Positions 6,926 through 54,984 of a stretch of 64,000 nt of DNA are shown piece by piece; within the stretch, counting starts at the first letter, position 1, and each line of letters begins with the position of its first letter. Origin of the DNA: Deltaproteobacteria bacterium (GTDB taxonomy: Bacteria; Bdellovibrionota_B; Oligoflexia; Oligoflexales; Bog-1112). The stretch spans positions 1 to 64,000 of the forward strand of contig JACPKR010000041.1 in assembly GCA_016186945.1 (NCBI GenBank), given 5' to 3'. A program made the position numbers and the translations under genes. The notes beneath the pieces are model-generated. The model ran no database searches. It had not been told where the DNA came from and was given only the letters and a program-made list of their open reading frames with translations.

Positions 6926-7939
6926 ATGACGATAGCTCTTATATGGGACAATCTTAAGACGCCTGTTTCACTTTTGCTCATAATCTTTTTCGGAGGAGCC
7001 TTAGGTTACAAGATTATCTACCCTGACGTTGAATGGTCAAAATTGTTTTTCATGACCGCCATAACACTTTCCACTGTTGGATATGGGGATGTGCTCAATG
7101 TGGAAGAGAATGCTGTTGCCAGCTACTATACCATGGTGTTGATGTTGGCGGGGATGGGGATAGTCCTTTACAGTGTTTCAGCCATTACAGCGTTTTTCCT
7201 GGAGGAGAAATTTGGGTATTTACTCATGTTACATTCAATGAAAAGGAGAGCTGGGAAGATGGAACATCACTATATCGTTTGCGGGGCGGGACAGACCGGT
7301 ATTCATGTGATCAAGGAATTGCACGACATGAAAACTCCGATGGTTGTCATCGAAGAAGACGAGAAAGTTGTTCATTCGCTACGGTCGCAATTTCATGGTG
7401 CGATCGTCTTTCCCGGTAATGCGATTCAAGATCAGATTTTGAAAGATGCTGGGATTGAGAAGGCGAGGGGTTTGCTTGCACTCCTAAAAGATGACAAGGA
7501 CAATCTGATACTTGTTGTGACGGCAAAAATGTTGAACCCGCATCTAAAGATCGCATCCAAAGCGATTGAATTGTCCATGGTGGGAAAATTGAAAAACGCA
7601 GGGGCGGATCATGTCGTAAGTCCTAACTTTGTTGGCGGCATGAGGATTGCGTCTGAGATTTTGAGGCCCCATGTAGTCTCTTTCCTGGACAGAATGTTAC
7701 GGCGGTCGGTCGTTGAACGGATTCTGGAGGTCTCCGTTTCACCGGGGAGTAAGAAGGTTGGCAGGTCTTTAGAGAGCTTGCATACTTTCAAGAAGATTGG
7801 CATCCATGTCATTGCCATTGCCAGAAGCGGGACGCAGATTTATAACCCTGATCCAGCAATGGTGTTGGAAGCCAATGATGTGCTTATTTTTATCGGGTCA
7901 CCAGATGATGCAAGGAATTTAGAGCACCTGGAACACTAA
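6926..7939 (+). CDS. Two-helix potassium channel with RCK (TrkA-N/TrkA-C) domains
   Basis: 337 residues. TM1 about 15-33, pore helix and selectivity filter TVGYGD at 50-55, TM2 about 66-90, then a RCK domain from about 112 (YIVCGAGQTGIHVIKEL Rossmann motif, acidic VVIEEDE strand end) and a TrkA-C domain about 250-337. This is the MthK-like layout: a K+ channel gated by a cytoplasmic ligand-binding ring. GGGAG lies before the ATG, 15 bp after the previous gene in an apparent operon. Confidence 0.9.
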   Translation: MTIALIWDNLKTPVSLLLIIFFGGALGYKIIYPDVEWSKLFFMTAITLSTVGYGDVLNVEENAVASYYTMVLMLAGMGIVLYSVSAITAFFLEEKFGYLLMLHSMKRRAGKMEHHYIVCGAGQTGIHVIKELHDMKTPMVVIEEDEKVVHSLRSQFHGAIVFPGNAIQDQILKDAGIEKARGLLALLKDDKDNLILVVTAKMLNPHLKIASKAIELSMVGKLKNAGADHVVSPNFVGGMRIASEILRPHVVSFLDRMLRRSVVERILEVSVSPGSKKVGRSLESLHTFKKIGIHVIAIARSGTQIYNPDPAMVLEANDVLIFIGSPDDARNLEHLEH

Positions 7940-15712: not shown

Positions 15713-16159
15713 ATGGCTAATTGTAGCTACGAACGACTCAAACAATACTTGGACGCGTATGGATGGGTCTATCGTTTCGATGGAAGCAATGTGTTTTATT
15801 CCGGCTGGCGCTCAGTGAATAGAACGTATTCGCTCCGAGTGGAAGTTAAGGAATCCTTTATCTTGTTTGAAGTCAAGCTTTTGGGTCTTTCCGAACTTCT
15901 TGAGAAGAAGCACAGGAAGAATATGATGGAATATCTTGTCCAACTTAACCAGAAAATTTCGGTAGCAAAACTGGGTATGAGTGATGATGGGATGGTTCTC
16001 TTACTTGTGGAAGTTTTCAACGACAATTTCAGTTATGACCATCTTAGTAAGGTCTTGGGCTTGATTGGTTACTATAGCGAAATGATTCACTCAGACATTT
16101 TGGAAATAGTGGGGACGCTCACAGGTCAGGCGAGTTATTTACCTCGTTATCTTATCTAG
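15713..16159 (+). CDS. YbjN-like / secretion-chaperone-fold protein
   Basis: 148 residues from ATG 15713, which has GGAGAGAAG just upstream; an earlier TTG lies in the repeat-derived sequence and is less likely. The profile (N-terminal helix YERLKQYLDAYGW, strands with W.. and ..LRVEVKESFILFEVKL, then two helices) resembles the YbjN/type III chaperone fold by eye only. No catalytic residues. Its 3' end overlaps the convergent response regulator by 21 bp. Confidence 0.5.
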   Translation: MANCSYERLKQYLDAYGWVYRFDGSNVFYSGWRSVNRTYSLRVEVKESFILFEVKLLGLSELLEKKHRKNMMEYLVQLNQKISVAKLGMSDDGMVLLLVEVFNDNFSYDHLSKVLGLIGYYSEMIHSDILEIVGTLTGQASYLPRYLI

Positions 16160-16570
16160 TATACGACTGGTGAGGTGGCTGGGGGAGAAGGGTTTCAGAA
16201 TGATGTCGTCGAACGGATTATCGGCTCCCGTGTTGAGCATCTTATTAGAGTTGATATCAGCAGTTATGGCAAAGATGATGGTTTCAGAAGGGAGTTTCTT
16301 AAGTTTCAAGGCTGTGTCAACACCGTTAAGGCCTGGCATATGAAGGTCCATAATGATGAGATCGAAGCGCTCGTTATGCACTTTCGAGATGGCTTCTGCT
16401 CCGTCCATCGCAATATCCACCAGGGCTCCTTTCTCTTGCAAAAAATACTGCAAAACCTCTCTCACATCCTGACTGTCATCTACGACGAGAATATGAAGGG
16501 GAGCTAAAGTCTGTGATACTGCTCTACTTTCGTTTAGTTCCTTCAATTTCTTCCCTCTGTGATTGCGCAT
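16139..16570 (-). CDS. Single-domain response regulator
   Basis: 143 residues. A ~25-residue tail precedes one receiver domain: acidic pair Asp31/Asp32, phosphoacceptor Asp75 (LIIMDLHMPG), Thr103 and Lys127 (ILKPF), a complete set. No output domain. The start overlaps the 3' end of the kinase gene by 47 bp, so the two are translationally coupled. As the kinase's own receiver lacks the phosphorylated Asp, this protein is the likely phosphate acceptor. Confidence 0.92.
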   Translation of the reverse strand: MRNHRGKKLKELNESRAVSQTLAPLHILVVDDSQDVREVLQYFLQEKGALVDIAMDGAEAISKVHNERFDLIIMDLHMPGLNGVDTALKLKKLPSETIIFAITADINSNKMLNTGADNPFDDIILKPFSPSHLTSRILDKITR

Positions 16571-18410
16571 CTTTTAGGAGATCCTTTACTCTATTAAGGA
16601 ACTCGCCAAATTCGCAAGGGTATTTCAAATAGGATAGCTTCAATTTTTCTATTCCTTTTGCATCGGGGCCAGAACGAAGTTTTTGCGCGCCTTGCATAAG
16701 ACAGATGGAGCCTTCAAACAATTCTCGAGCGCTTTTTACGAAACCATATCCGGAGACTGGATACATTCTTTCAGAACAGAGGATGGCATCAACACGGTTG
16801 TTGGAAAGAATGTCCAGCCCTTCCTTGACTGAGTATGCTTTTATGACAGTAATTTTTAGTTTCTCAAGAGATTCTTCAAAGGAAGGAAAGAGTGTGTCTT
16901 CATCGTCGACGTAGAGGAGGATGTTCTGCTGAGGTAACTTGACAGCCTCGGGCTTCTTCTCCTCCTCGGGTACGATGAAGGTAAGTATAAATTCGGTCCC
17001 CTTTTCGATTTCACTTTCGAATTCGATCGTGATGTTATTTGCCTCGCATAGTTTTTTTGCAACAGAAAGGCCTAAGCCTAGACCCACTCCAATGGGCTTT
17101 GTGGTGACAAGGGCGTCGAAGACTCTGTCTTTGATTTCATCTGGGATTCCGCTGCCTGAATCTTTAATACGTAGGATCACCTTTTTGTCATCGTTTTCAG
17201 CCGTGAGGAACAGTTCCTTTTTAAGGCTGTTAGTCATAGCCTGTATAGCATTTTTGAAAAGGATTAGAAGGATCTGCTGAACCTGATTAGGGTTTACATG
17301 AACAGGAGGAAGGTTCTTTGGGATCATTTGGGAAGTTTGAACCTGTCTGCTTTCAACATAACCTTCAAGAAGTTGAAGAGCGCCCTCTACCAGGGTGGAA
17401 ATGAATACATTCGTTTTTCCAGCTCTCGATATATTTGTATAGTTTTGAATGTTGCGAACCACTGTTCCTATGTGCGTGACGCTGTTTTCAATGCTCTTCA
17501 AGCGTTTGATCAGTGTCTCAGGAAGTTGTTCCCTTGCTTCCCTGACAATATAGAGGTTGAATTGAATCGACTGAAGGGAGTTGTTGATTTCATGAGCGAG
17601 GGTTGCGCTAGCCTCTCCGAGGGCAGCAAGACGAGTTTCTTTCAGCAATCGTCTTTCCTTCTCTTTTTCTTCAGTAATGTCAATCGTGTGGACCAGGCAT
17701 AGAGTTTCCGGTTCATATTGGATGACGAAAGCTCTGCTCCATATATCCCGCAACTTACCCTGCTTGTCGTAGATTTTGAGTTTTTCTTCGGCCACACCGG
17801 CTTCGCCCAGGCGTTGGAAAGTGGCGCCTAGCTTGAGAAGCTCTTCCGGGGGATAGATCTTTTCAATGGGAGTCTTTTCAAGATCATCACGAGAATATCC
17901 AAGAACTTCGCTTGCGTGCGGGTTGAGTCTGAGGATTTTCTGGTGAGTGAGTGAAAAAAGGTTAAGTATGTCTTTGCTATTTGCGAAAAGGTGTTCGAAG
18001 TAGCGAATCCATTTTTTCTGCGACTCTTCTTCTTTTTTCTTTGCTTCCCAGGAAATATCGACGAAGTGCAGGAGAACGTCGGTTTCAGTTATACAAAAAG
18101 CTCGTATGAACACGTCGAATGACGTGCCGTGGGGAGGTGTAAGTCTGGATGAAAGCATTGCTTGTTGGTTCGTTTTGAGTTCTTCAAGGAAAACGTTGAA
18201 AGCCAGCTGCTCTTCGTCCCGGAAAAGCTGTTCCAGGTTTCCCGGTTTGTATTTGAGGTTGTTGAGGAGCTGCTCAAATTTGATATTTGCCAGGCTAATG
18301 TCAAGACTTCTGATGTCGACAATCCCCACCGGATCCGGGGCGGTATTGAAGAGACTCATGAAGCAGTGGACGAGTTGTTCTCTACTATTGATGGTTCTAT
18401 TTGTTGCCAT
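16524..18410 (-). CDS. Cytoplasmic PAS sensor histidine kinase with a degenerate C-terminal receiver
   Basis: 628 residues with no transmembrane helix. PAS-like domains about 15-120 and about 135-250, dimerisation helix with His273 (TLAHEINNS), HATPase about 370-480 with Asn387 (N-box), DSGSGIP and GLGLGLSV boxes, then a receiver-like domain about 495-615. In that receiver the acidic pair is kept (VDDED) but the phosphoacceptor position reads CSERMYP, Ser546 instead of Asp, so it probably does not accept phosphate. It sits 31 bp after the small 18442 gene and overlaps the response regulator. It most likely senses an internal ligand, possibly the product of the upstream enzymes. Confidence 0.93.
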   Translation of the reverse strand: MATNRTINSREQLVHCFMSLFNTAPDPVGIVDIRSLDISLANIKFEQLLNNLKYKPGNLEQLFRDEEQLAFNVFLEELKTNQQAMLSSRLTPPHGTSFDVFIRAFCITETDVLLHFVDISWEAKKKEEESQKKWIRYFEHLFANSKDILNLFSLTHQKILRLNPHASEVLGYSRDDLEKTPIEKIYPPEELLKLGATFQRLGEAGVAEEKLKIYDKQGKLRDIWSRAFVIQYEPETLCLVHTIDITEEKEKERRLLKETRLAALGEASATLAHEINNSLQSIQFNLYIVREAREQLPETLIKRLKSIENSVTHIGTVVRNIQNYTNISRAGKTNVFISTLVEGALQLLEGYVESRQVQTSQMIPKNLPPVHVNPNQVQQILLILFKNAIQAMTNSLKKELFLTAENDDKKVILRIKDSGSGIPDEIKDRVFDALVTTKPIGVGLGLGLSVAKKLCEANNITIEFESEIEKGTEFILTFIVPEEEKKPEAVKLPQQNILLYVDDEDTLFPSFEESLEKLKITVIKAYSVKEGLDILSNNRVDAILCSERMYPVSGYGFVKSARELFEGSICLMQGAQKLRSGPDAKGIEKLKLSYLKYPCEFGEFLNRVKDLLKDAQSQREEIEGTKRK

Positions 18411-18441
18411 ATGTTTTATTCCACCTGATAATTCGCCGAAA

Positions 18442-18789
18442 TTACCAGGTTAATTGATCGGTTTGTCGGAGGATTTCTGTAATTGTGGAGAAAATAATTT
18501 GGGGAGGGCAATTTTCCCTTAGAAAACAACAGCGTCCAGCGAGGACATGTTCCTCAGCGTGGGGGAAAAAATTGAAGTCACCGACAACGAGGGTGCGACG
18601 GCCGTCTATCAGGATACCGAGATGCTCTCGCCATCCATTCCAGGGCAGCAGAATCATGGGGGTTCTGCTTTGCAGCGCGTTTCCGTTAAGTTCGTTGGGA
18701 GCGAGACAGAGCGGTTTCAGTTTCCCATTAAGAACTTGCTTAATGGAATTATGCTTTTGGGGTTCCCCGATGATATAGATGTCCCGCAT
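18442..18789 (-). CDS. Small protein of unknown function in the adenylation/reductase/kinase run
   Basis: 115 residues from the ATG at 18789 (MRDIYIIG); an ATG at 18810 would add seven residues. It overlaps the 3' end of the reductase gene by 41 bp and ends 31 bp before the kinase, so it fits in the same transcript. Predicted mixed alpha/beta with two strands LGILIDGRRTLVVGDFNF near the middle and two Cys (RCCF). No family recognised. The opposite strand also has open frames here, so the call leans on its operon position. Confidence 0.5.
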   Translation of the reverse strand: MRDIYIIGEPQKHNSIKQVLNGKLKPLCLAPNELNGNALQSRTPMILLPWNGWREHLGILIDGRRTLVVGDFNFFPHAEEHVLAGRCCFLRENCPPQIIFSTITEILRQTDQLTW

Positions 18790-20236
18790 GAACCCTCCAT
18801 TCTTTTTCATTGTCGTTAATGACCCTTCTCATGAGATCAATGGCAAAATAGCTGCCTTGATGGGGAAGTATAAATTTAGGCAGCGCTGTGATTCCGCCGT
18901 TGAGAAAATGATAGGAATCGATACGTGACGATAACTTTGTGAAGTCTTCTTTGTTTGCAAAGATGTTGACGGCAGTCCACGCTTTGCGGTGGTTTTGTTT
19001 TAGACTTGTCCCGGCAATCTTAATCGCTTCGTCGATGGTGTCGAAGGGAATCAAGGCTAGGAGTGTTCCTGGAAATTCCGAGTAGAGGCAGGGTGAATTT
19101 TGCGGTACGCCTTTAAGGACCACAACGTCCATGCTGGTACCTTCGAAATTTCCACAGGCGATGCTTCCTCCCAACGTGGGCAGGTATTTTTCCAGTTGCT
19201 TGACTTCTGTTCCCTCCCATTGACCCAGGTCGGTTTCCATTGCGAGCGGATCGCCAGCCTTTAGTTGGGACGACAGCTCTTGCAAACGAGCCAGGAGTTC
19301 TTCATAGCAGGCTCTGTTGACAAGGACCGGGCAGTGGGAGAGGCAAAATTTACCGTTGCCGAGTCTAGCACCTTCCAGGAGAAGTCCTGCAGCATCATCA
19401 AGGTCAACGTCCGGTTGCACGATAGTGAGGGGGAGACCTTTTCCGTATTTGATCACTTTCTTGTCAAGGTGCCGCTGCTCTCCGAGTTCCACCTGCGCCA
19501 TGAGTTCGACGAATGTTTCATCGGAGCAGAACACGATGGTCTGGTCGACGTTTCGGATCAATTGTTTGTTGAGTGAGATTGTATCTTCGCCTTCAGACGG
19601 CCAACGCACCAGTTGGGCGTAGTCACCCAGGTTGTTTTCCACAAGAATGTCGAGGAGAAAATGTGTTGCGACGTCTCTCCAGCTCGGCCGTAGGATGACA
19701 TGAGTTCCTGACAATATAGTGTGGGCGAGCGCAGTTCCCGCTGGCGGGCCGTCCATTGTTGAGGAAAAGATCAGAGCACCCGTTCCATCTGACTTGTAAC
19801 GGAGTTCGCTGAGAACCTTGTCTCCGGCTTTTATATTTCGCTTAAAGGACGTATCCATGCCGAAAACAGCGTCGACGAACAATTCCAGTTCCTCTGTCGA
19901 CTTTGCCAGGATATCCATCATCCACGAGGCATCTTTTGCGACCAATCCCCTGAATTTTGCCAGCCCCCAGCAGACATGGGATCGGTAGTTTTTTGCATAC
20001 TCCGAGAGCAAGAATCTGGCGACTTCGATTCTTTCTTTAATAGGGGTCCGGCTCAGGCGCTCCTGTGCCTCGTCGGCAAAGCGCAGGGCTTTACGAAGTT
20101 GAGGAGCGCTTACAGAAGCGATAGGGATTTTGTCAATCTTGTCGATGGAGTCTATGGTTCTTGCTGAATTCTCAACATCGATTCGTTTCCCTGCAATATA
20201 GCAGGGTAGTTGTTCAATTAGTCCCATCGTTCGCAT
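18749..20236 (-). CDS. Aldehyde-dehydrogenase-superfamily protein, candidate acyl/carboxylate reductase
   Basis: 495 residues. The layout is that of the aldehyde dehydrogenase fold: NAD-binding part with a VILRPSWRD helix, catalytic Cys298 in GNGKFCLSHCP, and a late SEFPGTLLALIPF.T.DEA strand equivalent to the EIFGPV motif. The usual general-base Glu of the ELGGK motif is replaced (IKYGKG, Lys263), as expected for enzymes that reduce thioesters instead of hydrolysing them, such as LuxC-like and CoA-acylating types. It overlaps the 3' end of the adenylation fusion by 19 bp. Proposed role: reduce the acid activated by its neighbour to an aldehyde. Superfamily sure, reaction inferred. Confidence 0.75.
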   Translation of the reverse strand: MRTMGLIEQLPCYIAGKRIDVENSARTIDSIDKIDKIPIASVSAPQLRKALRFADEAQERLSRTPIKERIEVARFLLSEYAKNYRSHVCWGLAKFRGLVAKDASWMMDILAKSTEELELFVDAVFGMDTSFKRNIKAGDKVLSELRYKSDGTGALIFSSTMDGPPAGTALAHTILSGTHVILRPSWRDVATHFLLDILVENNLGDYAQLVRWPSEGEDTISLNKQLIRNVDQTIVFCSDETFVELMAQVELGEQRHLDKKVIKYGKGLPLTIVQPDVDLDDAAGLLLEGARLGNGKFCLSHCPVLVNRACYEELLARLQELSSQLKAGDPLAMETDLGQWEGTEVKQLEKYLPTLGGSIACGNFEGTSMDVVVLKGVPQNSPCLYSEFPGTLLALIPFDTIDEAIKIAGTSLKQNHRKAWTAVNIFANKEDFTKLSSRIDSYHFLNGGITALPKFILPHQGSYFAIDLMRRVINDNEKEWRVHAGHLYHRGTPKA

Positions 20237-22362
20237 CCTCCCATGAGTTTGTCCAGATCGTTCGGTAAACGTGACGGGTTTAAAATTTTGGCCGTTTTAA
20301 GTCCGCACGGGCATGGTTCTTCCGAGTACGTCGCTCTGTCTCCCACGATGTAGCGTAGGAGCTGTGTTCCTTCCGCAGGGCCGATGCCATCTTCCAGACT
20401 TGCTCCGATTCTCGATGCGACCACCAGTCCCGATTCCCCCGAGCGGACGTGTTTACCAGAGTCATCCACGACTTCCAAAAAGATATGACCCTGGCAAAGG
20501 TGGAATCCAGCTGAATCGTGTGAACACGAAATTCCTGTTGGTAAGGCTTCCGTCGAACCGTAGAGGTTGGCAATATATTCGACGCCTAATTCACGAAGTT
20601 CCTCAAGCAGGTCCTTGCCCAATGCTGTACTGGAGACAATCAGAGTTTTGATTCCGATACGGGGGATAAAGTCAGGGTCAACTGCCAGGAAGTCTTCCAG
20701 GCTTCCCCCCTTCCCGCTGCCACTGCGCGGAGTCAGGACCATAGCCTGAATCTTGAGCCGCTCCATTTCCGCGATGGATTCCTCTTCGTTGCTATTGAAA
20801 TGCCGAGGAATGGGCGTAGCGCCCAGTAAGCGCATGATATCGTCGAAAGCGGGGCCGGAAACGTGACCTTGGTTGTAGCCGTTCCACACTCGCAAACCCT
20901 TCCAGCTTTTTCGCAGGGGCTTCATGTATCGGACCGCAGTTTCCATGGCAGCCGTCCAGTCTGGCTTTGTCCAAAACATCGGTGTGGGCACACCCGTTGT
21001 TCCCCCCGACCCACGGACAAGATGGATCGGAGCGTCTTTCAGGCCGATCAAATCCTGCGGGTCGGTGAGGCGCAGTATCTGCTTGCCAATGGGAGGAAGG
21101 CTTTCAATGTCCTCCCTCGTGAGCCTGTCTCGTTTAAGAAGGCCCTCTGGTAGCCGTTTTTGCCAGAAATCACAATGTTCCGAGGCAAACAAGATCTGCT
21201 GTCGGTAAAGCTCGCAAAGCCATTTTTCCAAAATGTTGCGATCGTTTGTGTCCCAGTCGCGGGATAGGAAAGAAGTAGGCATCGAGTCTCCGGTTTTTTC
21301 AGTCGTTGGCATGATGAACGGTTTCTTTTGGATCCCTGCACTCCGTGAAACCAATACCGTTGAAGGAGGAACAGGGGAATTTACAAGGAAGACCTCATGA
21401 CCTATCGTTGCAAGAAGCTCCTCATACTCTCGAATGGAATAGACTCCGCCAGCCTCATTCTGAAGAAGCATGCTTAGACCAAAGATCAAACTGTAAGGGG
21501 GATAATTCCTTTTTTCATTCAAGCAATATTCATTGATCACAATGAGACTGGACGGATGGATATGCTTGCTTACTTTTTTAAGAAGGGTTTTAATTGTCTC
21601 CTTTGACTCTTGGTGGAGAAGATGGGACAGGATGACCACGTCAAAGGCTTCCTGCGGCCAGGGAGTGGTGAAAATATTCCCGTCAACCGTGTGGAAACGC
21701 TTTTCAACGTAGGCTTTCTGATTGAAAGTCCGAGCTTCCTCATTCACATGAGGCCAGTCTACCTGTACAACGCGAGCTTGCGGAAAGTATGCGAGAAAGG
21801 CTTCTCCAAAGACGCCAGAGCCGCCTCCCAAGTCAATCACGTTCCTGATCTCATTTTTGCCCCATGCGAGTGAACGGGCTACACTTTGAGCAACCTGCAT
21901 ACTAAACGGGCGAATCGCGCGAACCAATTGCTTCCAGAACTCTGCTCCCGGTTCATCCGTGCGTTGACGGGCACGCGGGTGACCATCTTTTACTGTGTCA
22001 GTCAAAGTTAACCAGGTCTCTCTTCCCAGACGCCAGAGGATTTTAATGGCCTCTCCGACGTAAAGCGGGGAGCTGGGGACAAGGTACGTTTGAGCTGTTG
22101 GGGAATTTGAATATTTTGATCCGTCAAAACTCACAAGATCGAGGGCGACCAGACCTCCTAGGATGCTTTCCATACTGCGTCGAGCAAGAGACAAGAGCTG
22201 CGAAATTTTTTCGAGATTCGCGTCCGGATGAGCAGCCAGTGTAGCAAAAATGCCCAAATCAATTGCTGACATGATGATGTGACTTTTTCGGTATCCTGCA
22301 GCGTTGAGAAGCAGGCTTGTAAGGTCGGCTTCCGCCTCTTGATTTTTTGAAGACGTGCTCAA
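20218..22362 (-). CDS. Fusion of an O-methyltransferase and a phenylacetate-CoA ligase/LuxE-like adenylation domain
   Basis: 714 residues. Residues 1-345 are a plant-type O-methyltransferase: winged-helix dimerisation domain (about 15-100), SAM motif VIDLGGGSG (175-183), and acidic VQVDWP strand end. After a linker (about 346-370), residues 371-714 form an adenylate-forming domain of the PaaK/acyl-protein-synthetase type: GSGGTTGVP (451-459), YGSTE (601-605), GDRA (675-678) and a CPCG cysteine pair (684-687). It would activate a carboxylic acid and methylate an oxygen (or other) group of the same pathway. First gene of the minus-strand run; the promoter should lie in 22363-22493. I know of no named family with this domain pair. 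Confidence 0.85.
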   Translation of the reverse strand: MSTSSKNQEAEADLTSLLLNAAGYRKSHIIMSAIDLGIFATLAAHPDANLEKISQLLSLARRSMESILGGLVALDLVSFDGSKYSNSPTAQTYLVPSSPLYVGEAIKILWRLGRETWLTLTDTVKDGHPRARQRTDEPGAEFWKQLVRAIRPFSMQVAQSVARSLAWGKNEIRNVIDLGGGSGVFGEAFLAYFPQARVVQVDWPHVNEEARTFNQKAYVEKRFHTVDGNIFTTPWPQEAFDVVILSHLLHQESKETIKTLLKKVSKHIHPSSLIVINEYCLNEKRNYPPYSLIFGLSMLLQNEAGGVYSIREYEELLATIGHEVFLVNSPVPPSTVLVSRSAGIQKKPFIMPTTEKTGDSMPTSFLSRDWDTNDRNILEKWLCELYRQQILFASEHCDFWQKRLPEGLLKRDRLTREDIESLPPIGKQILRLTDPQDLIGLKDAPIHLVRGSGGTTGVPTPMFWTKPDWTAAMETAVRYMKPLRKSWKGLRVWNGYNQGHVSGPAFDDIMRLLGATPIPRHFNSNEEESIAEMERLKIQAMVLTPRSGSGKGGSLEDFLAVDPDFIPRIGIKTLIVSSTALGKDLLEELRELGVEYIANLYGSTEALPTGISCSHDSAGFHLCQGHIFLEVVDDSGKHVRSGESGLVVASRIGASLEDGIGPAEGTQLLRYIVGDRATYSEEPCPCGLKTAKILNPSRLPNDLDKLMGGCERWD

Positions 22363-22493
22363 GGATAATCCCTTTTATGGGTAGTAGAGATTCGTCGGAA
22401 GAGTTTTTTTTAAGAACTTAGTCGGGAATATTGTACGCCTAGACTGCATACCTAGGCAAGGGGCTGTTTATGGCGTCGCTCTCCCAAGGAATT

Positions 22494-22588
22494 CTTGGAG
22501 GAACCAGCTGCGCAGTTTCCTCCAAACCACCTCCTTGCTGGAGGAAGGGGGAATGCCCTCCAAACCACCTCCTTGCCTCAAGTGGTGG
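22494..22588 (+). repeat. Family A repeat, rearranged copy (A5)
   Basis: TTGGAGGAACCAGCTGCGCAG.. core and right arm, followed by a second right arm (CCTCCAAACCACCTCCTTGC at 22557-22576). This looks like a tandem or nested pair of fragments. It overlaps the last codons of the glycosyltransferase gene (stop at 22578). Confidence 0.75.
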
Positions 22589-36741: not shown

Positions 36742-38238
36742 GTGGGCGTTCGAACATACATGCTTAGCTCCCTACTCAGCTTGTCAGCTGGCTCAGCCTT
36801 TGCCGACTACACGTCTGGGCTGCGACTCTTTAACGCCAAGAATTACACATCATCTGCCCCTGAATTTTACAGCGCCTTTCAAAATGCGAAGGAGAAAAAA
36901 TCAAGACTCCAGGCGGCACTGGGACTAGCGACTAGTCTCCAACGTCTAGGGTTTTCCTACGCCGCGACAGAGTACTTTGCGATGCTTGTAGAGTCAGGGC
37001 ATGCTGCCCTATTTCGAGAAGGTCTGGAGGCTTATGCGGCCATAGACGAGCTGACCCCATTGAGTCGCGAGACGATTGCACGCCTTTTCAAGCAGGATGT
37101 CGAACTGAGTGGTGTAGGACCCGCTGCTCGGGGGTTTTTCTTCTATTATGCGGGGCGAGAATATTTTCAGAGAAAACTTTGGCGTCAAGCGGAGGAATTG
37201 TTCAAGCAGGTACCCCCGGTCAGTGCGCTCTTTCCCAAAGCGTTGTTTCACCTCGGCATCGTTAGCCATCTAAGCGGCAATGCTACAATGAGCGAGCGCT
37301 ATTTCGACAAAGCATTGGAAGTCGCCAGCACTCTTCGAAATTCGGACTGGTTTCGTGAACAGGTCTTTTTGAACCTAGCGCGTCTCCACTATGAAAAGCA
37401 AGACTTCGTGCGAGCTGTCGAATTCTACGCAAAAATCCCGAGAGACTCCGAGAATTGGCTTACGGCAGTCCTTGAATCCGCTTGGGCTTTCTTCCTCATG
37501 GAAAAGCCCAACAACACGCTGGGGAATATCCACACCCTTCACTCACCCTTCTTCGAAAAGAGGTTCTTTCCAGAAAGTTTCATCCTCCAGGCGACAAGCT
37601 TTCTCCGCCTCTGTCGCTTCGATCGTGTGAAAACATCTGTCGACGAGTTTGACAGACGCTATGGGCCTGTCTTCAATCAACTTAGGGAAGTCATCGGCAC
37701 AGCGGAAAAAAATCCGGAATTCATTTATGAAATTGTCCGCGACTACAAGATGCAAAAGCTAGAGCAATACCAAGAAATAGGGACGGTGCTTGACGCCCTG
37801 TCCCGCACCGATCTTTTCAAGCAGGGCCTTGCGACGATGGAAAAACTTGCGGATGAGGAAAAGCGTCTGGTCACAGCACCCAGCTCGTGGCCTCGTCCCT
37901 TTGCCGACAAACTTCGCTCCTTGCTTGAGCAAAAACAGTCACGACTTGTCCAAGACCTAGGACGTTCGTTGCAAGAACAGGGACAGTTTTACCTTCGTTA
38001 TCTGAACGAATTGGGAGCGCAAGCCAAGCTGATTACAGCCGAGCGGCTGTTGGGAAGGATCGAAGCCCTTCGTCAGGAGTTACAGATTCACACAACTCCG
38101 AAGAAGGAGAACTTTATCGGAGGGCTACAACCGTTGGTGTTAGGTCAAGATTTGGAATATTGGCCCTTTGAAGGGGAATACTGGGAAGATGAGCTGGGAG
38201 GCTATGTTTACAACATCGCAAGCAAGTGTAGGGGATAA
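36742..38238 (+). CDS. Exported TPR protein (GltE/NfsE-like)
   Basis: 498 residues from GTG 36742, directly after the barrel-gene stop, with GGGAGG upstream. Signal peptide about 1-22 (SAFA-D). Then repeated TPR-like helix pairs (about 30-290), for example SAPEFYSAFQNAKEKKSRLQAALGLATSL and LARLHYEKQDFVRAVEFYAKIPRD; the C-terminal part is coiled-coil-rich. No catalytic motif. GltE/NfsE are TPR proteins of the outer-membrane part of the machine; the assignment is by position, length and repeat type. Confidence 0.75.
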   Translation: MGVRTYMLSSLLSLSAGSAFADYTSGLRLFNAKNYTSSAPEFYSAFQNAKEKKSRLQAALGLATSLQRLGFSYAATEYFAMLVESGHAALFREGLEAYAAIDELTPLSRETIARLFKQDVELSGVGPAARGFFFYYAGREYFQRKLWRQAEELFKQVPPVSALFPKALFHLGIVSHLSGNATMSERYFDKALEVASTLRNSDWFREQVFLNLARLHYEKQDFVRAVEFYAKIPRDSENWLTAVLESAWAFFLMEKPNNTLGNIHTLHSPFFEKRFFPESFILQATSFLRLCRFDRVKTSVDEFDRRYGPVFNQLREVIGTAEKNPEFIYEIVRDYKMQKLEQYQEIGTVLDALSRTDLFKQGLATMEKLADEEKRLVTAPSSWPRPFADKLRSLLEQKQSRLVQDLGRSLQEQGQFYLRYLNELGAQAKLITAERLLGRIEALRQELQIHTTPKKENFIGGLQPLVLGQDLEYWPFEGEYWEDELGGYVYNIASKCRG

Positions 38239-38239
38239 G

Positions 38240-41200
38240 ATGCAAGCTTCGTCACGCCAGATTCTTCTTCTCCTTGCTTGCGGATCAGTGTGTGCCCTGA
38301 CCGCGTCAGCGCAGGAGCATCAACGCCCACCGCTAAGCATTGAGACACCCTCGAAAAAAGAGATTCTCCCAAGGAAAGAAGCTCCCCAGGACAGAAAGCA
38401 GCTATACCACAGGGAACTGCGCAAGGAACTTATAGAAAAAATCGATGAGACGATCGCCTATCTAAGCAAACTTGCTGGACAGTATCCCCGCAAGTCACCC
38501 CAACGCTTGAAGTTTCTGGATAAAATCCTAGGTTTGCACTTCGAGCAAGCCGTATTCATCGCCTCCGAAGAAAGCGAGCGCTACGATCGTGATTGGAACG
38601 TATGGAACGAGGGAGGACAAAAGGGCCGAGAGCCACAGGTCAACAATCGAGTTTCAAAGGCGCATTGGCAACGGGTGGAAACTCTCGCCAATGACGTGTT
38701 GAAGGAATATCCTCAAGCCCCCCAAGCGGACAAAATAAAATTCCACCAGGCCATCGCCCAGCAATACCTTGAAAAAAAGGATCTAGCAGCCCGCTCTCTT
38801 CAGGACTTAGTTAAGCAATATCCTCGCTCCAGGATGCTCGATGATGCGCATTTTGCTCTTGGCGAATATGAATTCGGACGTGCGCAATTCAATCGGTCGC
38901 TCTTTCATTTCGAAAAATCAATCGACAGAGACAACCCAGATCGCTTGGGATGGGCACTTTTCAAGATGGGATGGTGCTATTACAACTTGGGTAATTTTCA
39001 AGCTGCCCTGAAATTTTGGAAGCAAACGATTGCCGTCACTCAGAACTTTCAGAACGAGAAAAAAGCGTTGATCCTGAGGGAAGAAGTTCTTAGGGACATC
39101 GTTTTGGCTTTCGTTGAATTGGGACAAACTGACGAAGCAATAGCGTATTTTCGACAAAACAAGGGGGATGAGTTTATCGCAAGCTTTCTCGACTCACTCG
39201 CGAGAAACTACCAGAAGAAGGGAGCGAAACAGCGATCCCTCGATGTCTGGAATCGACTCCTTGCTACAACACCAGATTCACAGGAAGCCTTTGATGCCCA
39301 GGTGGAAGCGATCGCGCTTCTCAACGAACGGGGAGCCTATGACCAGGTTTGGACTAGGCTAGAAAGTATGCACGCTCGCATTTCACCGCAAGGTTCCTGG
39401 GCCACGGCAAATCCGAACCAAGTTAAAGATGCAACTCGGAAAACAGCGGAGTTAATGATTTACTATCCGAAAGTGATCCATAAGAAAGCTCAGAAAAGTG
39501 ACTCCTCCAAACTTTATTCTGAAGCGCGAAAAGGTTACGTCCAGTATTTGAAACACTATCCTGAGTCAAGGGACCAGACAGAAATTTGGGAATTGCTCGG
39601 GGATGTTACTTACGCGCAAAATCAATATGAACAGGCCGGAGACGTCTACCTCAACATCGTTAAGCTAGGCAAAGACAAGGCGGTGATCTATGACGAGAAA
39701 GGCAAGGTCACTCTCAATATTCATGCCCGGTCTGCGAAGAACATGCTCGATTCTTACAATAAAACAATGGCGGATGAACTTAAGGGACTCCTCCAGAAAC
39801 GCCCGAATTTTGAGAAGACCCCAGAAACCCTTAGCGAGCAAGCGCGGAAGTTCATCTCTTCCTGCCAATTGTTCACGGAGCAATACCCCCAAGAAAAGGC
39901 CCTGATAAGAAATTGTGACTCCTTTGTTGCTGAAATTTACTACCGAACCGGGCATCGTGAAGAAGCTAAAAAAGCACTGTTCACAGTCGCGTTCAAATAC
40001 GCAGACGCCAAAGAGGGGCCTGAAGCTGTGGAAAACCTCATTCCCCTCGTCAAAGATGATGAAGCGTTTCTTGTGTCCACCGTAAGAAGACTGCTCGCTC
40101 TCTCGGCTTACCAGAAGGGAAAAATAGGGGCCAAGCTGCAGGGGGTCATGCGCGGGCTAGAACTGAAGACCTTGACCCAGGAGACATCGGAAAAAAAACG
40201 AGCCAGTCTTTACGAAGAGCGGGCCTTGAAATTCCCCAACGATCCCGAGGCAGACAAATTTTGGTACAACGCTGCTCATGACTATATGAAGTCGGGGGAC
40301 ATGGCACGTGCGGTTAACGCTTTTCAAATGATAGCCACAAAATACCCACAGTCGAGAGCTTATGGCGAGTCGCTTCTCACCTTGGGAAAGCTCTACGATA
40401 AGCTGTTTGAGTACAAAAGAGCGTCTCAGTTCTACAGTCTCTATGCACAACGTAATCCTACAGAGAAGGAAGCGGCAGGGGCCGGGCAACGAGCCTGTGA
40501 CCTGGCTATTGTAGAAAACCTTGATCGTGCCTGGGACATCTGCCAAGCCTTCGCCACGCAACATAAAACGATCGGTGCCCGGCAAGTCGAGCGTATGATT
40601 CAAATCGCCTTCCTTAGAAAAGATGGGGATCGTGTCGCTCATCTGGTACAGAACGTCTATTTGCCGAATTTCCCCCTAGACCCTTCACAGAAAATCATGG
40701 CGTACCACAAATTGTTTCAAGTGGGATCAGACTCTCATCGGGTCGCGGCTCGGAAGATTATTTTGGAACAGGGAAAGAAGGGTGTTGCCGGAGAGGCTCT
40801 ACGTTACTACGCAGAAATGCTCTTTCTCGGGCATGATGGTCGTTTTGAGCAGCATATGGCCTTGAGTCTTCGAAGCGGGTCAGTGGAGAACTTGCAAGCT
40901 TCCATCCAAAAAATATCCGCGAGTCTGACTCAGCTTGAGAACGCCTACGGTCAAGTGACTGCAACGAAGGACTCCTACTGGGGAACAGTCGTATTCTACC
41001 GACTCGGTCTGGCTAACGAACAATTCGCTGAGCAACTTGCTAAGCCACCGGCAATCGCTGGTGTGAAGGAAGACGAGTTGAAGGCCCAGTTGAAAGCATC
41101 GGTTGACCAGGTGATGGAAAAAGCTAGGGAATTCTATAAGGTCGGACTGGATACCGCACGCAAGTTTTCCGTCTATAATGAATCTGTGCCAAAGCTTGTC

Positions 41201-41278
41201 GATGCCCAGCTACGGATGAGTCATCGTAAGGAGCGTTTCCTTGACTGGGTTCTGATACCGGACATGCTCGGGCAATAG
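38240..41278 (+). CDS. Large exported TPR protein (GltD/NfsD-like)
   Basis: 1012 residues from ATG 38240 (AGGGG upstream, 1 bp after the previous stop); an upstream in-frame start lies inside that gene and leaves the signal peptide internal. Signal peptide about 1-24 (ASA-Q). Nearly the whole protein is TPR-like: spaced ..A..G...Y..G....A...F......P repeats such as DDAHFALGEYEFGRAQFNRS and GWCYYNLGNFQAALKFW. GltD/NfsD of Myxococcus are similarly large periplasmic TPR proteins. A family B repeat begins 2 bp after the stop. Confidence 0.8.
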   Translation: MQASSRQILLLLACGSVCALTASAQEHQRPPLSIETPSKKEILPRKEAPQDRKQLYHRELRKELIEKIDETIAYLSKLAGQYPRKSPQRLKFLDKILGLHFEQAVFIASEESERYDRDWNVWNEGGQKGREPQVNNRVSKAHWQRVETLANDVLKEYPQAPQADKIKFHQAIAQQYLEKKDLAARSLQDLVKQYPRSRMLDDAHFALGEYEFGRAQFNRSLFHFEKSIDRDNPDRLGWALFKMGWCYYNLGNFQAALKFWKQTIAVTQNFQNEKKALILREEVLRDIVLAFVELGQTDEAIAYFRQNKGDEFIASFLDSLARNYQKKGAKQRSLDVWNRLLATTPDSQEAFDAQVEAIALLNERGAYDQVWTRLESMHARISPQGSWATANPNQVKDATRKTAELMIYYPKVIHKKAQKSDSSKLYSEARKGYVQYLKHYPESRDQTEIWELLGDVTYAQNQYEQAGDVYLNIVKLGKDKAVIYDEKGKVTLNIHARSAKNMLDSYNKTMADELKGLLQKRPNFEKTPETLSEQARKFISSCQLFTEQYPQEKALIRNCDSFVAEIYYRTGHREEAKKALFTVAFKYADAKEGPEAVENLIPLVKDDEAFLVSTVRRLLALSAYQKGKIGAKLQGVMRGLELKTLTQETSEKKRASLYEERALKFPNDPEADKFWYNAAHDYMKSGDMARAVNAFQMIATKYPQSRAYGESLLTLGKLYDKLFEYKRASQFYSLYAQRNPTEKEAAGAGQRACDLAIVENLDRAWDICQAFATQHKTIGARQVERMIQIAFLRKDGDRVAHLVQNVYLPNFPLDPSQKIMAYHKLFQVGSDSHRVAARKIILEQGKKGVAGEALRYYAEMLFLGHDGRFEQHMALSLRSGSVENLQASIQKISASLTQLENAYGQVTATKDSYWGTVVFYRLGLANEQFAEQLAKPPAIAGVKEDELKAQLKASVDQVMEKAREFYKVGLDTARKFSVYNESVPKLVDAQLRMSHRKERFLDWVLIPDMLGQ

Positions 41279-41279
41279 A

Positions 41280-41322
41280 TATAGTATTTGGGAAAAAGAA
41301 TTTGTGGAGAGGACCTTTTTTG
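41280..41322 (+). repeat. Family B repeat, left end only (B5)
   Basis: TATAGTATTTGGGAAAAAG.. AATTTGTGGAGAGGACC, then the sequence leaves the family and enters a 51-bp tandem repeat. No right end is found nearby. Confidence 0.85.
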
Positions 41323-41466
41323 CGCTGTCATCCCGCGGCTTGACCGCGGGATCCAAAGGAGCAGCCTTTTTTGCGCTGTCATCCCGCGGCTTGACCGCGG
41401 GATCCAAAGGAGCAGCCTTTTTTGCGCTGTCATCCCGCGGCTTGACCGCGGGATCCAAAGGAGCAG
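41314..41466 (+). repeat. Three identical 51-bp tandem repeats with a GC-rich hairpin
   Basis: Units 41314-41364, 41365-41415 and 41416-41466 are identical. Each holds GTCATCCCGCGGCTTGACC.. GCGGGATCC, the same hairpin nested in family B long forms, followed by AAAGGAG. As 51 is a multiple of 3, the frame stays open and would code three 17-residue repeats (CAVIPRLDRGIQRSS..). Confidence 0.95.
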
Positions 41467-41494
41467 CCTTCCTCGAACAAGTTGGATCCCGGCC

Positions 41495-42286
41495 GTGGTG
41501 AGAGTTTTACTGGTTCTGTTCTGCATTGTGACGGCATGTACTGCGCCCTCTCCCGAAGGTGAGGTGCAGGAGGCTGTCGAACGTTCCCCCAAGGAAGACG
41601 CGCCAGCTCGACAGGGAGAAGCTCAGATTTTCAGCGTATCGAACAATCCCTTGATCTCCCATCCGGTTGATCCGCGTAAGTTGATCCAGAAAAAACAGGC
41701 AGTCGCAATGCAGGGGACTGACAAAAACATTCCTGACGCGGCTAAACTCAGCCTTGCTATGGGCGCTTTTTATTCACAAAATTGGGGGGAATTGCTTCTG
41801 TTCTTGGATGATTTGACGGCCTCTCGCGATGTCAGAGTGCGATCGCAAGCTCACAATATTCAAGGTGTCCTCGCTCTCAGGGAAGGACGTCTGTCCGAAG
41901 CCGTAGTCTCCTTTCAAGAAGCTCTAAGGAGTGATAACTCCAACCAAGCAGCACTTCTGAACCTTGGGTTTTTAAACCTGCGTTTTGGGTACTTCGACAA
42001 AGCTCTGCCCCTTCTCTTGCAGGGGGGTGATGACTGGTTTGCAAAGAGTGGGCTGATTGTGATCAAACGATTGAGCGGTGATCTCAAGGGAGCGGACGAG
42101 CTATGTGACGAGGTGCTTGACAAACATGGTAAGCACAAGATGACGCTTTTCAACTGCGGACTCTTGGAATTTCAAAGCAAGGGTGATATCCGGCAAGCGC
42201 GGAGCCTGATTGAAAAGGCGATGGCCGTCCCTGGGGGCGAGCGTGAGTGGAACGCGGAAGCTGTACGGCTTCTACGATCTATGTGA
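41495..42286 (+). CDS. TPR lipoprotein (GltC/NfsC-like)
   Basis: 263 residues from GTG 41495 (GTG 41498 equally possible). The signal VVRVLLVLFCIVTAC gives a lipobox with Cys about 16. The frame stays open upstream through the 51-bp repeats but those codons would bury the signal. The body has at least three TPR units (about 90-260: AHNIQGVLALREGRLSEAVVSFQEALRSD, ALLNLGFLNLRFGYFDKALPLLLQ). No good ribosome site is near the GTG, so the repeats probably replaced the native start region. GltC/NfsC is the matching component in Myxococcus. Confidence 0.75.
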   Translation: MVRVLLVLFCIVTACTAPSPEGEVQEAVERSPKEDAPARQGEAQIFSVSNNPLISHPVDPRKLIQKKQAVAMQGTDKNIPDAAKLSLAMGAFYSQNWGELLLFLDDLTASRDVRVRSQAHNIQGVLALREGRLSEAVVSFQEALRSDNSNQAALLNLGFLNLRFGYFDKALPLLLQGGDDWFAKSGLIVIKRLSGDLKGADELCDEVLDKHGKHKMTLFNCGLLEFQSKGDIRQARSLIEKAMAVPGGEREWNAEAVRLLRSM

Positions 42287-42303
42287 CAACAAGGAGAGGT
42301 CTC

Positions 42304-44175
42304 TTGGAAATCTTTTTTAACATGCCCGATACCGGTGACCAACACATAGAACTAAGTGGTCAGTCGATGAAAATCGGGAGCCTCCTATCTAACGAAATCG
42401 TCGTTGAATCCGAGGGAGTCGATCCGATACATGCTCTTCTTGAAAAACAAGAGGGAGCATGGCTCCTCACAAACCTTTCTGATGCTGGTGTGCTGGTTAA
42501 CGGTAAAGCTGTGTCGATCGAGGCGACACTGCGGGAAGGCGATACGCTCACCATAGGTCGTGTCGTGCTCAAGTTGCAAAAGGCTGTTCCCTTGCCTCCT
42601 CCCCTTCCCCGCATGGATAAGGCTTCCCAGCCTCTTGAAAAGGAAACGCCTGCCGAACGTGGGGAACGCAGAAGCTTAGGGTCTCTTTTTGCCCCGCGAA
42701 AAACGTTACCAAGTGGGGACATGCTGGAAGTCGTTGCGTATTGGGAAGGTCATGTTCTTGATGTCGAGCACTTTCATCCGACCTTGAAAGGCTTCGACAA
42801 GGTAAGCATTGGAGATCCGACTAAGACCCACTTTCTTGCCGCGGGGGACGAGGATATTGCCCACCATGTTCTCGCGGAAGTAGATGACGGCAGCTACACG
42901 CTCCATTTGTTGGACGGAATGACTGCCAGAGTTCGCAGTGCCGGAGAGGTGAAGGAGCTAGGACCAGGAACTCACGAATTGGGACGACGGGATCTTACCC
43001 ACGTGCGTTTTGGCCCGATCCACTACTTCTTCCTTTTTATGAGGTTGCCAGAACTCATTCTGCCTCCCCAGGGGTGGAAAGACCCACTGTTTGCGGGGAT
43101 GATGGCTGTCGGCCTCTTGCTATGGGCTTTAGTCACAGGTAGTTTTTTGGTGACGGACCCTAAGCTTCTCGAAGAACGTGAGCCGGACCTATGGTCGATT
43201 GTTCAGTTGCCTGACAGACTTCCTGAGAAGAAGCGGCCTCAAGCCAAGCCACCTGTCGAAGTTGCAGAGCTAAAAACTCCTCCCCCTCCTCGGGAAACAC
43301 CTCCTCCTCCAAAACCACAGCCTGTCAAAGCTGTGACCCCTGAGGAGCAGGAGAAGCCAAAACCTAAACCCCAAGCGGCACCTCCTTCACCTCCTCCTCG
43401 TGGTTCGGAAACGCTGACGAAAGCACGTACGCAAGAACCCACACGGAAAGCTTCCGAGAAACCAGGGCAGCCGAAACCCCAGCAGTTCGGAAACGATAAA
43501 CCAGGGGGACAAAGAAAAGGTAACGATAGCTCGAATGTTATGGGTGTGGAGGGAGTCAATAACAAGAAATCGTCAGGCATCAATTTAAACCAACTCGGTT
43601 TAGGTGTCGGCAAAGTGTCCTCGCAGTCGGGAACGGGTGCCATATACACAAAGTTCAAGGATTCCTCAGGAGGAGCGGGAGGAGGAACAGGGTCGGGAGG
43701 AGCGAAAGGATTCGGGCTTGGCGGCCTGGGTACAGGAAAGTCTTTGGGGATCGCCGGTGCGGAACAAGCTGTAGGAAGCTTCGGAGGGGGCGGCTTGCTG
43801 AAAGATTCCGAGGTGGGAGGAGGATTTGCCAGAGAAGGAGTCGACGTAAATGTGCGGGGTACAGATCCTCTGATCTCAGGAGGACTTACCGACGATCAGG
43901 TAAAAGCGGTGATCAATGCAAATCTGAATCAGATACGTCACTGCTATCAACAACTCCTTCAAAAGGACCCCGAGGCGCTTGGCCGCGTTAGGATCAAATT
44001 TATCATAGGGCTGACGGGAAGGGTTCGGACCTCCGACGTCGCTGATTCGACCTTCTCCGATCTCAACATTCAAAACTGTGTAAGTACAACAATCAAGCGG
44101 TGGCAATTCCCCACACCTCGAGGAGACGCCGACGTTATCGTTACCTACCCCTTTATTTTTCAACCCGTGACTTAA
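42304..44175 (+). CDS. FHA - membrane helix - TonB-like C-terminal protein (GltG/NfsG/AgmX type)
   Basis: 623 residues from TTG 42304, which has AAGGAG 7 bases upstream; the next ATG is 42322. FHA domain about 1-95 (KIGSLLSNEI, HALLEK, LVNGKAV, LREGDTLTIG), a second beta domain about 125-250 (VSIGDPTKTHFLA.., HELGRR), one membrane helix about 260-282, a Pro/Lys/Glu-rich stretch about 300-400, a Gly-rich stretch about 440-520, and a TonB-type C-terminal domain about 530-623 (VINANLNQIRHCYQQLL, VSTTIKRWQFP, VTYPFIF). It would span from the cytoplasm, where FHA reads phospho-Thr, to the outer-membrane parts. Last gene of the operon. Confidence 0.88.
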   Translation: MEIFFNMPDTGDQHIELSGQSMKIGSLLSNEIVVESEGVDPIHALLEKQEGAWLLTNLSDAGVLVNGKAVSIEATLREGDTLTIGRVVLKLQKAVPLPPPLPRMDKASQPLEKETPAERGERRSLGSLFAPRKTLPSGDMLEVVAYWEGHVLDVEHFHPTLKGFDKVSIGDPTKTHFLAAGDEDIAHHVLAEVDDGSYTLHLLDGMTARVRSAGEVKELGPGTHELGRRDLTHVRFGPIHYFFLFMRLPELILPPQGWKDPLFAGMMAVGLLLWALVTGSFLVTDPKLLEEREPDLWSIVQLPDRLPEKKRPQAKPPVEVAELKTPPPPRETPPPPKPQPVKAVTPEEQEKPKPKPQAAPPSPPPRGSETLTKARTQEPTRKASEKPGQPKPQQFGNDKPGGQRKGNDSSNVMGVEGVNNKKSSGINLNQLGLGVGKVSSQSGTGAIYTKFKDSSGGAGGGTGSGGAKGFGLGGLGTGKSLGIAGAEQAVGSFGGGGLLKDSEVGGGFAREGVDVNVRGTDPLISGGLTDDQVKAVINANLNQIRHCYQQLLQKDPEALGRVRIKFIIGLTGRVRTSDVADSTFSDLNIQNCVSTTIKRWQFPTPRGDADVIVTYPFIFQPVT

Positions 44176-53550: not shown

Positions 53551-54984
53551 TTACGCAGATTGGGGAAGAGTTTTGTCGCTATAATCATATTTTTCAAACA
53601 AGCGATCGATTTCTTCTTTCTTTGCATGAGGGATCAGTATGTCCTTGAAAATATCAAACGCTGACTTTGCAATGATTTCGATATCTTCATTTTGTTTTAA
53701 AGTGGCAATGTATTCGAGGGCATTTTTTGAAAATTCCCAGGCTACAAAAACACCAATCCTCTTCTTTTCCGATGTTATCGCTGAATGAAATTTTTGTATG
53801 TCAGGTCGTCCGACAGGTGTTGAATGGTTTTTCACTTGAATTGGATTGCGATTTCCATCCCAACCATCGATCCCTCGATCACCTGTCTTTTTGTCATTAA
53901 CTTTCCAGCCCATATATTCACAAACGATTCTTGCAAAATCGTGCCCATCAATTTCCTTCAACTCCTTCTCAGTTTTGGGAACATTTTTGATCTCGAAACT
54001 AACTTTCGAAGATTTGCTGTTGAGCCTTTGTGCCGACACTTTGATAGCTACGGGAGATACGTCCCCTATGATAAATCTTCGATCTGTCATCGAGCAAACT
54101 TTTGCCGTGGTTCCGCCTCCGGAGAAGCAATCCAAAACGAGATCACCGGGATTTGATGAACACTTTATTAGTCTTTGAAGTAAGGCTTCTGGTTTTTGAG
54201 TTGGGTACCCCAAACGTTCAGTGGCTTGTCCTTGGATTGCCAAGATATCGTCCCATACTGTATCAACCGGCCTTCCCTTGTTTTCATCTAAGTACCGTTT
54301 CAAGCGTGGAACCCCATTTCCTTTCTGGTAAATAAGCCCTTGTCGATCCGCGTCGTTCATTTTTTCTTTTGTCCAACGCCATACCTTTAGATGTCCTCTG
54401 AACTCATAAGTCAAATTTGGCCTATTAGGGTTTGGATTTGCAAGGTTGTCTAGCTGATATCGTCGTCCCGTCCCTTCTTCGACATGCTTATAGAACTTTC
54501 GAATATACTCAGGGTCCTGACTGCTGAACGGCCGATTCCAAGTAAATTTTTCAGATTTTGTGTAATAGAGAATTGTATCGTGATTATTGGGTAATCTGGT
54601 TGAAGCAAGTCCTTTGGCTCCCTGTCTTTTCCAAATAATCTCAGACCTGAAATTTTTTCCTCCAAATGTATCGTCAAGTAAGCACCTGAGGCGATGTGAG
54701 GCGTGCCAGTCACAATGAAGAAATAGTGTTCCCGTATTTTTTATTTTCTTATGGATCAATTCGATTCTTGGCCTCATCCATTCGATATAGTGTGAAATTC
54801 CGCCAGAAAATCTATCCCCGAATGATCTTAGTTCATACCCGTTTCCCCAAATAATTTCATAGTCTCGATTGCTAAAGAAGGGGGGGTCAATATAGCAAAG
54901 GTCAACGGATTCATCAGGAATCCAATTGAGCCAGTCAATATTGTCACCGCAAACAATGGTGTTTTTATTTGGATCAATTTTCAC
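53551..54984 (-). CDS. DNA methyltransferase fused to an Mrr-like nuclease domain
   Basis: 477 residues. N-terminal DNA amino-methyltransferase of the beta order: motif IV DPPF (33-36) before the target region (about 110-255), then TQKP (262-265) and motif I DCFSGGGTT (285-293). Residues about 345-477 look like a PD-(D/E)XK restriction fold: Asp373 (DRGIDGWD), then Gln383-x-Lys385 (IQVKNH), then VFVAWEFSKNA. One chain thus holds modification and cutting activities, a layout suggestive of a single-protein restriction system. The next gene downstream is the cyclase-like one. Confidence 0.8.
   Translation of the reverse strand: MKIDPNKNTIVCGDNIDWLNWIPDESVDLCYIDPPFFSNRDYEIIWGNGYELRSFGDRFSGGISHYIEWMRPRIELIHKKIKNTGTLFLHCDWHASHRLRCLLDDTFGGKNFRSEIIWKRQGAKGLASTRLPNNHDTILYYTKSEKFTWNRPFSSQDPEYIRKFYKHVEEGTGRRYQLDNLANPNPNRPNLTYEFRGHLKVWRWTKEKMNDADRQGLIYQKGNGVPRLKRYLDENKGRPVDTVWDDILAIQGQATERLGYPTQKPEALLQRLIKCSSNPGDLVLDCFSGGGTTAKVCSMTDRRFIIGDVSPVAIKVSAQRLNSKSSKVSFEIKNVPKTEKELKEIDGHDFARIVCEYMGWKVNDKKTGDRGIDGWDGNRNPIQVKNHSTPVGRPDIQKFHSAITSEKKRIGVFVAWEFSKNALEYIATLKQNEDIEIIAKSAFDIFKDILIPHAKKEEIDRLFEKYDYSDKTLPQSA

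Follow-up and report, generated by a model that had tools for sequence, protein, structure and literature searches.

A conserved five-gene unit of Oligoflexus-like bacteria that may produce a small molecule and the cytoplasmic PAS kinase that reads it

Results

A compact run of five minus-strand genes

The locus comprises five genes on the minus strand of the window, by which we mean the whole 64,000-nt stretch of DNA that was analyzed, and all five open reading frames were confirmed at the coordinates listed here.

20218..22362, minus strand: gene 1, 714 aa, an O-methyltransferase fused to a PaaK/LuxE-like adenylating enzyme
18749..20236, minus strand: gene 2, 495 aa, an aldehyde-dehydrogenase/LuxC-like acyl reductase
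18442..18810, minus strand: gene 3, 122 aa, a small receiver-fold protein
16524..18410, minus strand: gene 4, 628 aa, a soluble PAS-PAS-HisKA-HATPase-degenerate receiver histidine kinase
16139..16570, minus strand: gene 5, 143 aa, a stand-alone receiver

Three overlaps and one 31-bp gap make up the spacing, in agreement with the original prediction, which had described five minus-strand genes overlapping or lying no more than 31 bp apart, and the overlaps suggest a single operon. Pfam and NCBIfam searches returned the expected domain content for genes 1, 2, 4, and 5 (O-methyltransferase plus AMP-binding/PaaK-like, aldehyde dehydrogenase/LuxC, PAS-HisKA-HATPase, and receiver, respectively), and no transmembrane stretch was seen in any of the five proteins.

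Two start codons are likely to need revision because of the ribosome-binding sites nearby. The start of gene 2 is probably better placed at 20227 (ATGGGA behind GGAGG), and that of gene 3 probably at 18789, also behind GGAGG. The expression signals considered in the window are the following.

20225..20241, minus strand: translation signals of gene 2 (GGAGG ribosome-binding site; ATG at 20225-20227), inside the last codons of gene 1
22430..22459, minus strand: promoter-like TTGCCT-18-TACAAT upstream of gene 1, a consensus match only

An ATGGGA overlap at the gene 1/gene 2 junction, with GGAGG or a G-rich equivalent, recurs in all five known loci of the unit (see below), and the embedded ribosome-binding site probably couples translation of gene 2 to that of gene 1. 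The promoter-like site had no counterpart upstream of the other loci. Its spacer contains an inverted repeat, GCCTAG-9-CTAGGC (22437-22457), which was considered as an operator and rejected, being absent from the other loci.

Other repeats were encountered in the same upstream regions. Upstream of gene 1, the 20-mer GCAAGGAGGTGGTTTGGAGG is present twice in a head-to-tail arrangement (minus strand, window about 22497-22575). It has 469 occurrences with up to two mismatches in the 2.66-Mb genome versus 0 in a reversed control, is absent from the same-genus genome, and has a single degenerate match among 14 relatives; it resembles a dispersed repeat that has expanded recently. In genome G008, two operator-like copies of GATATCCGGAT lie upstream of gene 1 (L012, about 7580-7660); this sequence was not seen at the other loci of the unit. 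Elsewhere, a single protein of the window (53551-54984) combines N6/N4 DNA methylase and Mrr-type restriction endonuclease domains, and the region 36742-44175 encodes a protein with an FHA/Yop-YscD cytoplasmic domain (42247-44175) close to a pair of TPR proteins (36742-41278).

Conservation of the unit

The original prediction had proposed looking for the same gene order in other genomes, and a phylum-wide search of 58 genomes found it in five, including the window's own. Absence of the order from relatives, which the prediction had named as a ground for rejecting it, is not what these genomes show. The order gene 1, gene 2, (usually) small protein, PAS kinase, receiver is kept across three genera and two families. 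Gene 2, the gene 1 fusion, and the kinase (E 1e-100) are all confined to these same five genomes; at that threshold the kinase occurred without the enzymes in none of the 58, the next-best protein within the five scoring 4e-45. The signaling genes thus always travel with the enzymes, as expected if the five genes form the one unit originally proposed. The locus in the genus of the window (L010) has its gene 1 cut by a contig end, and that in another genus of the same family (L012) lacks the small protein. Both loci from the other family (L011 and L013) carry a second regulator of 290-303 aa (L011:5492-6403, L013:86-958), made up of a receiver and about 180 aa without a known family; the C-terminal part of the 303-aa L011 protein had no usable PDB match by sequence.

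The surroundings of the unit are not kept. In the window its upstream neighbor is mannosyltransferase-like and its downstream neighbor is a convergent YbjN-like gene, and the relatives have instead TauE-like (L010), NUDIX (L012), and transposase (L011) neighbors. Because order and identity are kept in five genomes with different neighbors, the grouping goes beyond chance. That two unrelated functions merely happen to be adjacent would fit the patchiness of the unit, but the recurrence of one order at five loci with different flanks makes this explanation very improbable indeed.

A scan of 84,980 species with short exact patterns, a search of low sensitivity, returned three loci, all in metagenome-assembled genomes of this group. 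No relative of the unit was found on viral contigs, and on plasmids the methyltransferases, PaaK ligases, and aldehyde dehydrogenases that turned up were all separate proteins, with no instance of the fusion. Six further genomes of the phylum carry single-domain methyltransferases. Within the open-licence literature, we found no papers on this gene set.

Gene 1, a methyltransferase-adenylation fusion with a cysteine tail

Gene 1 matches PF00891 (7.5e-23), PF08100, and PF00501 (2.9e-7) in Pfam and NF045666 (9.5e-23) in NCBIfam, and its methyltransferase comes with its dimerization domain. The orthologues in the four other genomes are 47-56% identical to the protein of the window. Three parts can be distinguished.

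21340..22329, minus strand: methyltransferase domain, residues about 12-341; structural match 2r3s, Z 30.4
20257..21267, minus strand: adenylating domain, residues about 366-702; structural comparison with 2y27, 2y4n, and 4r1l
20221..20241, minus strand: tail GGCxxW[DE]; Cys710 (20233-20235) is the proposed acyl-carrying cysteine

Among the orthologues, the SAM motif DLGGGSG is kept and His250 is invariant within LxxHQE; the adenylation motifs GTTGxP, YGxxE, and VGD are likewise retained, with GTSGxP and YGGSE in one orthologue. In the alignment with PaaK, the adenylating half covers residues about 6-331 out of about 430 and the gene 1 protein stops at the same point, which means that the C-terminal lid domain serving CoA is missing. 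What gene 1 has at this end is the GGCxxW[DE] tail, invariant in all five orthologues. Part of the conservation of GG and W[DE] in this tail may come from gene 2, whose ribosome-binding site is formed by the GG codons and whose start lies within the W[DE] codons; only the cysteine speaks for conservation at the protein level. The codon of Cys710 varies between TGC and TGT among the five, suggesting that the amino acid itself is under selection.

In the lux system, acylation of LuxE takes place on its cysteine. A profile comparison of gene 1 with true LuxE of the same phylum gave an E value of 5.8e-5, and one of gene 2 with LuxC gave 7e-6 (LuxC PHDG aligned to PHQG), with moderate Hhalign probabilities of 66 and 84%. 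Cys710 lies 22-23 residues after CxCG versus 20 in four of five true LuxE proteins of the phylum, which end in a KGC motif (KSC in one). The Pfam LuxE model PF04443 did not match the C-terminal half of gene 1 at E values up to 10, and a phylum search with it found other genes, gene 1 not among them. The AlphaFold model of gene 1 is middling (pLDDT 69, tail under 50), too uncertain to place Cys710.

True LuxE genes stand beside LuxC-like genes in other genomes of the phylum (L039-L043), where no luciferase was found within the 4 kb examined. At three of these loci (L039, L040, and L043) a GNAT-like acetyltransferase gene, judged by eye, also adjoins the pair.

Both the methyltransferase and the ligase resemble natural-product enzymes (such as RedM, MfnG, PaaK, and the FlxY/FlxJ families). 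Their structurally known relatives mostly act on aromatic compounds, which makes an aryl acid the more likely substrate of gene 1.

Gene 2, a candidate acyl reductase

Gene 2 matches the aldehyde dehydrogenase family (PF00171, 1.9e-21) and LuxC (PF05893, 5e-6, 26.1 bits versus a cut-off of 21); the LuxC match covers residues 168-319 only, and Aldedh scores higher. The nucleophile Cys298 (19343-19345) and a C-terminal LPHQG are invariant in the gene 2 alignment. The region that holds the general base of aldehyde dehydrogenases reads KYGxGLPL here, aligned by eye, and the missing glutamate fits an acyl reductase. Domains and catalytic residues of both enzymes thus support the earlier suggestion that the first two genes could activate, methylate, and reduce an acid, and in the likely chemistry an O-methylated acid would be reduced to an aldehyde in the manner of LuxE/LuxC.

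Such an acyl or aldehyde product might decorate a macromolecule (a glycan, a flagellum, or a lipid) under control of the signaling genes. In Aeromonas, luxE and luxC lie in a flagellar glycosylation island (PMC7874193) and may play such a part there. The conserved unit itself has no glycosyltransferase, acyl carrier, or flagellar gene, and the mannosyltransferase-like gene upstream in the window is not conserved with it; we regard decoration as improbable.

The signaling genes

The maximum 19-residue Kyte-Doolittle mean of gene 4 is 1.40, hence the protein has no transmembrane segment; together with the Pfam domains this upholds the view of the last two genes as a cytoplasmic PAS kinase and a receiver protein. 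Two of its domains deserve separate mention.

17670..18023, minus strand: PAS-B, gene 4 residues 130-247; sensing domain, the most conserved part between the two families
16566..16931, minus strand: degenerate receiver at the gene 4 C terminus, with an invariant Glu547 at the acceptor position

PAS-A is present only in the genus of the window. In all six between-family pairs, PAS-B is 48-55% identical, versus 30-40% for HisKA and 37-46% for HATPase. Eight control kinase pairs from the same genomes, a small set (n = 8) consisting mostly of paralogues, behaved differently: in six, the region before HisKA was less conserved than either core domain; in the other two, close pairs of one genus, it ranked between them; and in none of the eight did it lie above both. 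PAS-B of gene 4 is therefore unusually well conserved relative to its kinase core.

A rival explanation would place a redox or light cofactor in PAS-B, with the unit coupling the redox state of the cell to aldehyde production. PAS kinases are often cofactor sensors, and the reductase needs NAD(P)H. In PAS domains, heme is signaled by an F-alpha histidine, FAD by an F-alpha tryptophan, and FMN by the LOV cysteine (PMC10468136); none of these residues is among the conserved PAS-B positions, F-alpha being assigned by sequence only. Nor did a search of PAS-B against the PDB by sequence yield a usable or close PAS match. We therefore consider a cofactor of this kind quite improbable, at a level slightly below that of decoration. 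The original prediction had named the binding of an unrelated cofactor as a finding that would count against it, and PAS-B appears, as far as its residues tell, to carry no heme, FAD, or LOV signature. The conserved PAS-B could alternatively bind a partner protein or a cofactor outside this list.

The genome of L010 also encodes a stand-alone 247-aa protein (L057:1207-1950, G003:C437) that consists of the same two PAS domains and nothing else and is 36% identical to the kinase.

Gene 3 has no sequence family match in Pfam or NCBIfam. Its predicted fold is that of a receiver (AlphaFold pLDDT 85; receiver domains head the Foldseek list and make up most of it, best E 1e-3), the phospho-acceptor aspartate is absent, and positional counterparts exist in three of the four relatives. 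The receiver of gene 5 is intact (PF00072, 9.9e-25), with the acidic pair D31/D32, the acceptor D75, and K126, and has no output or DNA-binding domain.

The main rival to a signaling function is regulated secondary metabolism, in which the enzymes would make a pigment precursor, an antibiotic, or a protective aldehyde, and the kinase would sense an outside or metabolic cue and control the enzymes or their use, the product not being its ligand. Kinase-receiver pairs commonly adjoin biosynthetic genes, and the likeness of the methyltransferase and ligase to natural-product enzymes such as RedM, MfnG, PaaK, and the FlxY/FlxJ families speaks for such a pathway. Against it, the unit contains neither a DNA-binding regulator nor a transporter, PAS-B exceeds the kinase core in conservation between the two families, and in the 58 genomes the kinase never occurs without the enzymes. 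On balance, we think this explanation rather unlikely, while taking it more seriously than the others.

Discussion

What the sequences themselves show is which genes make up the unit, that these are conserved together, their domains and catalytic residues, the absence of the lid domain, and the conservation of PAS-B. The explanation that we prefer, and to which we would give about an even chance, is that the unit makes a small molecule that is read by its own cytoplasmic sensor, in an organization like that of PhcBSRQ with other enzymes. The original prediction had read the run in this way, by analogy with autoinducer systems, and the sequences bear it out in part. The patchy distribution of the unit, over just five genomes of which four are fragmented or incomplete, counts against this explanation. 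The substrate, the order of the steps, and the aldehyde product are what we infer for the enzymes. The N-terminal half of gene 1 would methylate a hydroxylated, probably aryl, acid, and the C-terminal half would convert the acid to an acyl-adenylate. The acyl group would then be loaded onto the cysteine of the flexible GGCxxW tail, as in LuxE, a transfer that we propose because the CoA lid domain is missing. Gene 2 would accept the acyl group on its own cysteine and reduce it to the aldehyde, as in LuxC.

For the signaling half, the identity of the ligand and the output are likewise put forward conditionally. The aldehyde, or a product of it, would bind PAS-B of gene 4, and the ligand-bound kinase would alter phosphorylation of the gene 5 receiver. 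This phosphorylation step may be tuned by both degenerate receivers, that of gene 3 and that at the kinase C terminus. As the unit encodes no DNA-binding domain, its output would presumably pass through contact between proteins.

A more far-reaching version, which we advance only tentatively, is that this is an undescribed system in which an O-methylated aldehyde, made by the fusion and the LuxC-like reductase, would diffuse between cells and be read by a dedicated PAS kinase in the cytoplasm of Oligoflexus-like bacteria; some species would have stand-alone PAS proteins that serve as further receptors or sinks. If this is true, bacterial signaling would gain a chemical class and an enzyme architecture that are both new, in a little-studied group, and LuxE/LuxC-type chemistry, known for light-producing aldehydes, would be linked to the making of a signal. 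The compact five-gene form could be moved to a laboratory host.

Each half of the proposed enzymology has its counterparts. Gene 1 shares a common fold and adenylation motifs with PaaK-type phenylacetate/aryl-CoA ligases, from which it differs in having a cysteine tail in place of the C-terminal lid domain. The likeness to LuxE/LuxC, seen by profile similarity, lies in an adenylating enzyme with a C-terminal cysteine followed by a LuxC-like reductase. Unlike LuxE, gene 1 is closer to PaaK, carries a methyltransferase, and has a shorter tail after the cysteine, and unlike in a luminescence operon, no LuxD or luciferase gene adjoins the unit.

The synthase and receptor genes of the RpfF/RpfR system are adjacent. 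There, the BDSF signal is read by the PAS domain of a cytoplasmic receptor (PMC13220807), which is the mode of perception proposed for our unit; the synthase is of another type and the output is c-di-GMP, whereas here a kinase and a receiver are present.

Among working systems, the nearest analogue of the unit is the PhcBSRQ operon of Ralstonia, a quorum-sensing system with a methyltransferase, a sensor kinase, and receivers without a DNA-binding domain (PMC8578825), whose signals are 3-OH PAME and 3-OH MAME. The original prediction had called the enzymes unlike known autoinducer synthases, a description that stands for the LuxE/LuxC-like activation and reduction pair and has to be given up for the pairing of a methyltransferase with a kinase and receivers, which PhcBSRQ shares. 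This comparison is one of gene content, and no Phc model is among the NCBIfam matches listed for the unit. In both cases a methyltransferase, a kinase, and a receiver without a DNA-binding domain share one operon, or in our case a predicted one; the difference is that our unit has its methyltransferase in a fusion with an adenylating enzyme, an acyl reductase as the next gene, and a soluble kinase with PAS domains.
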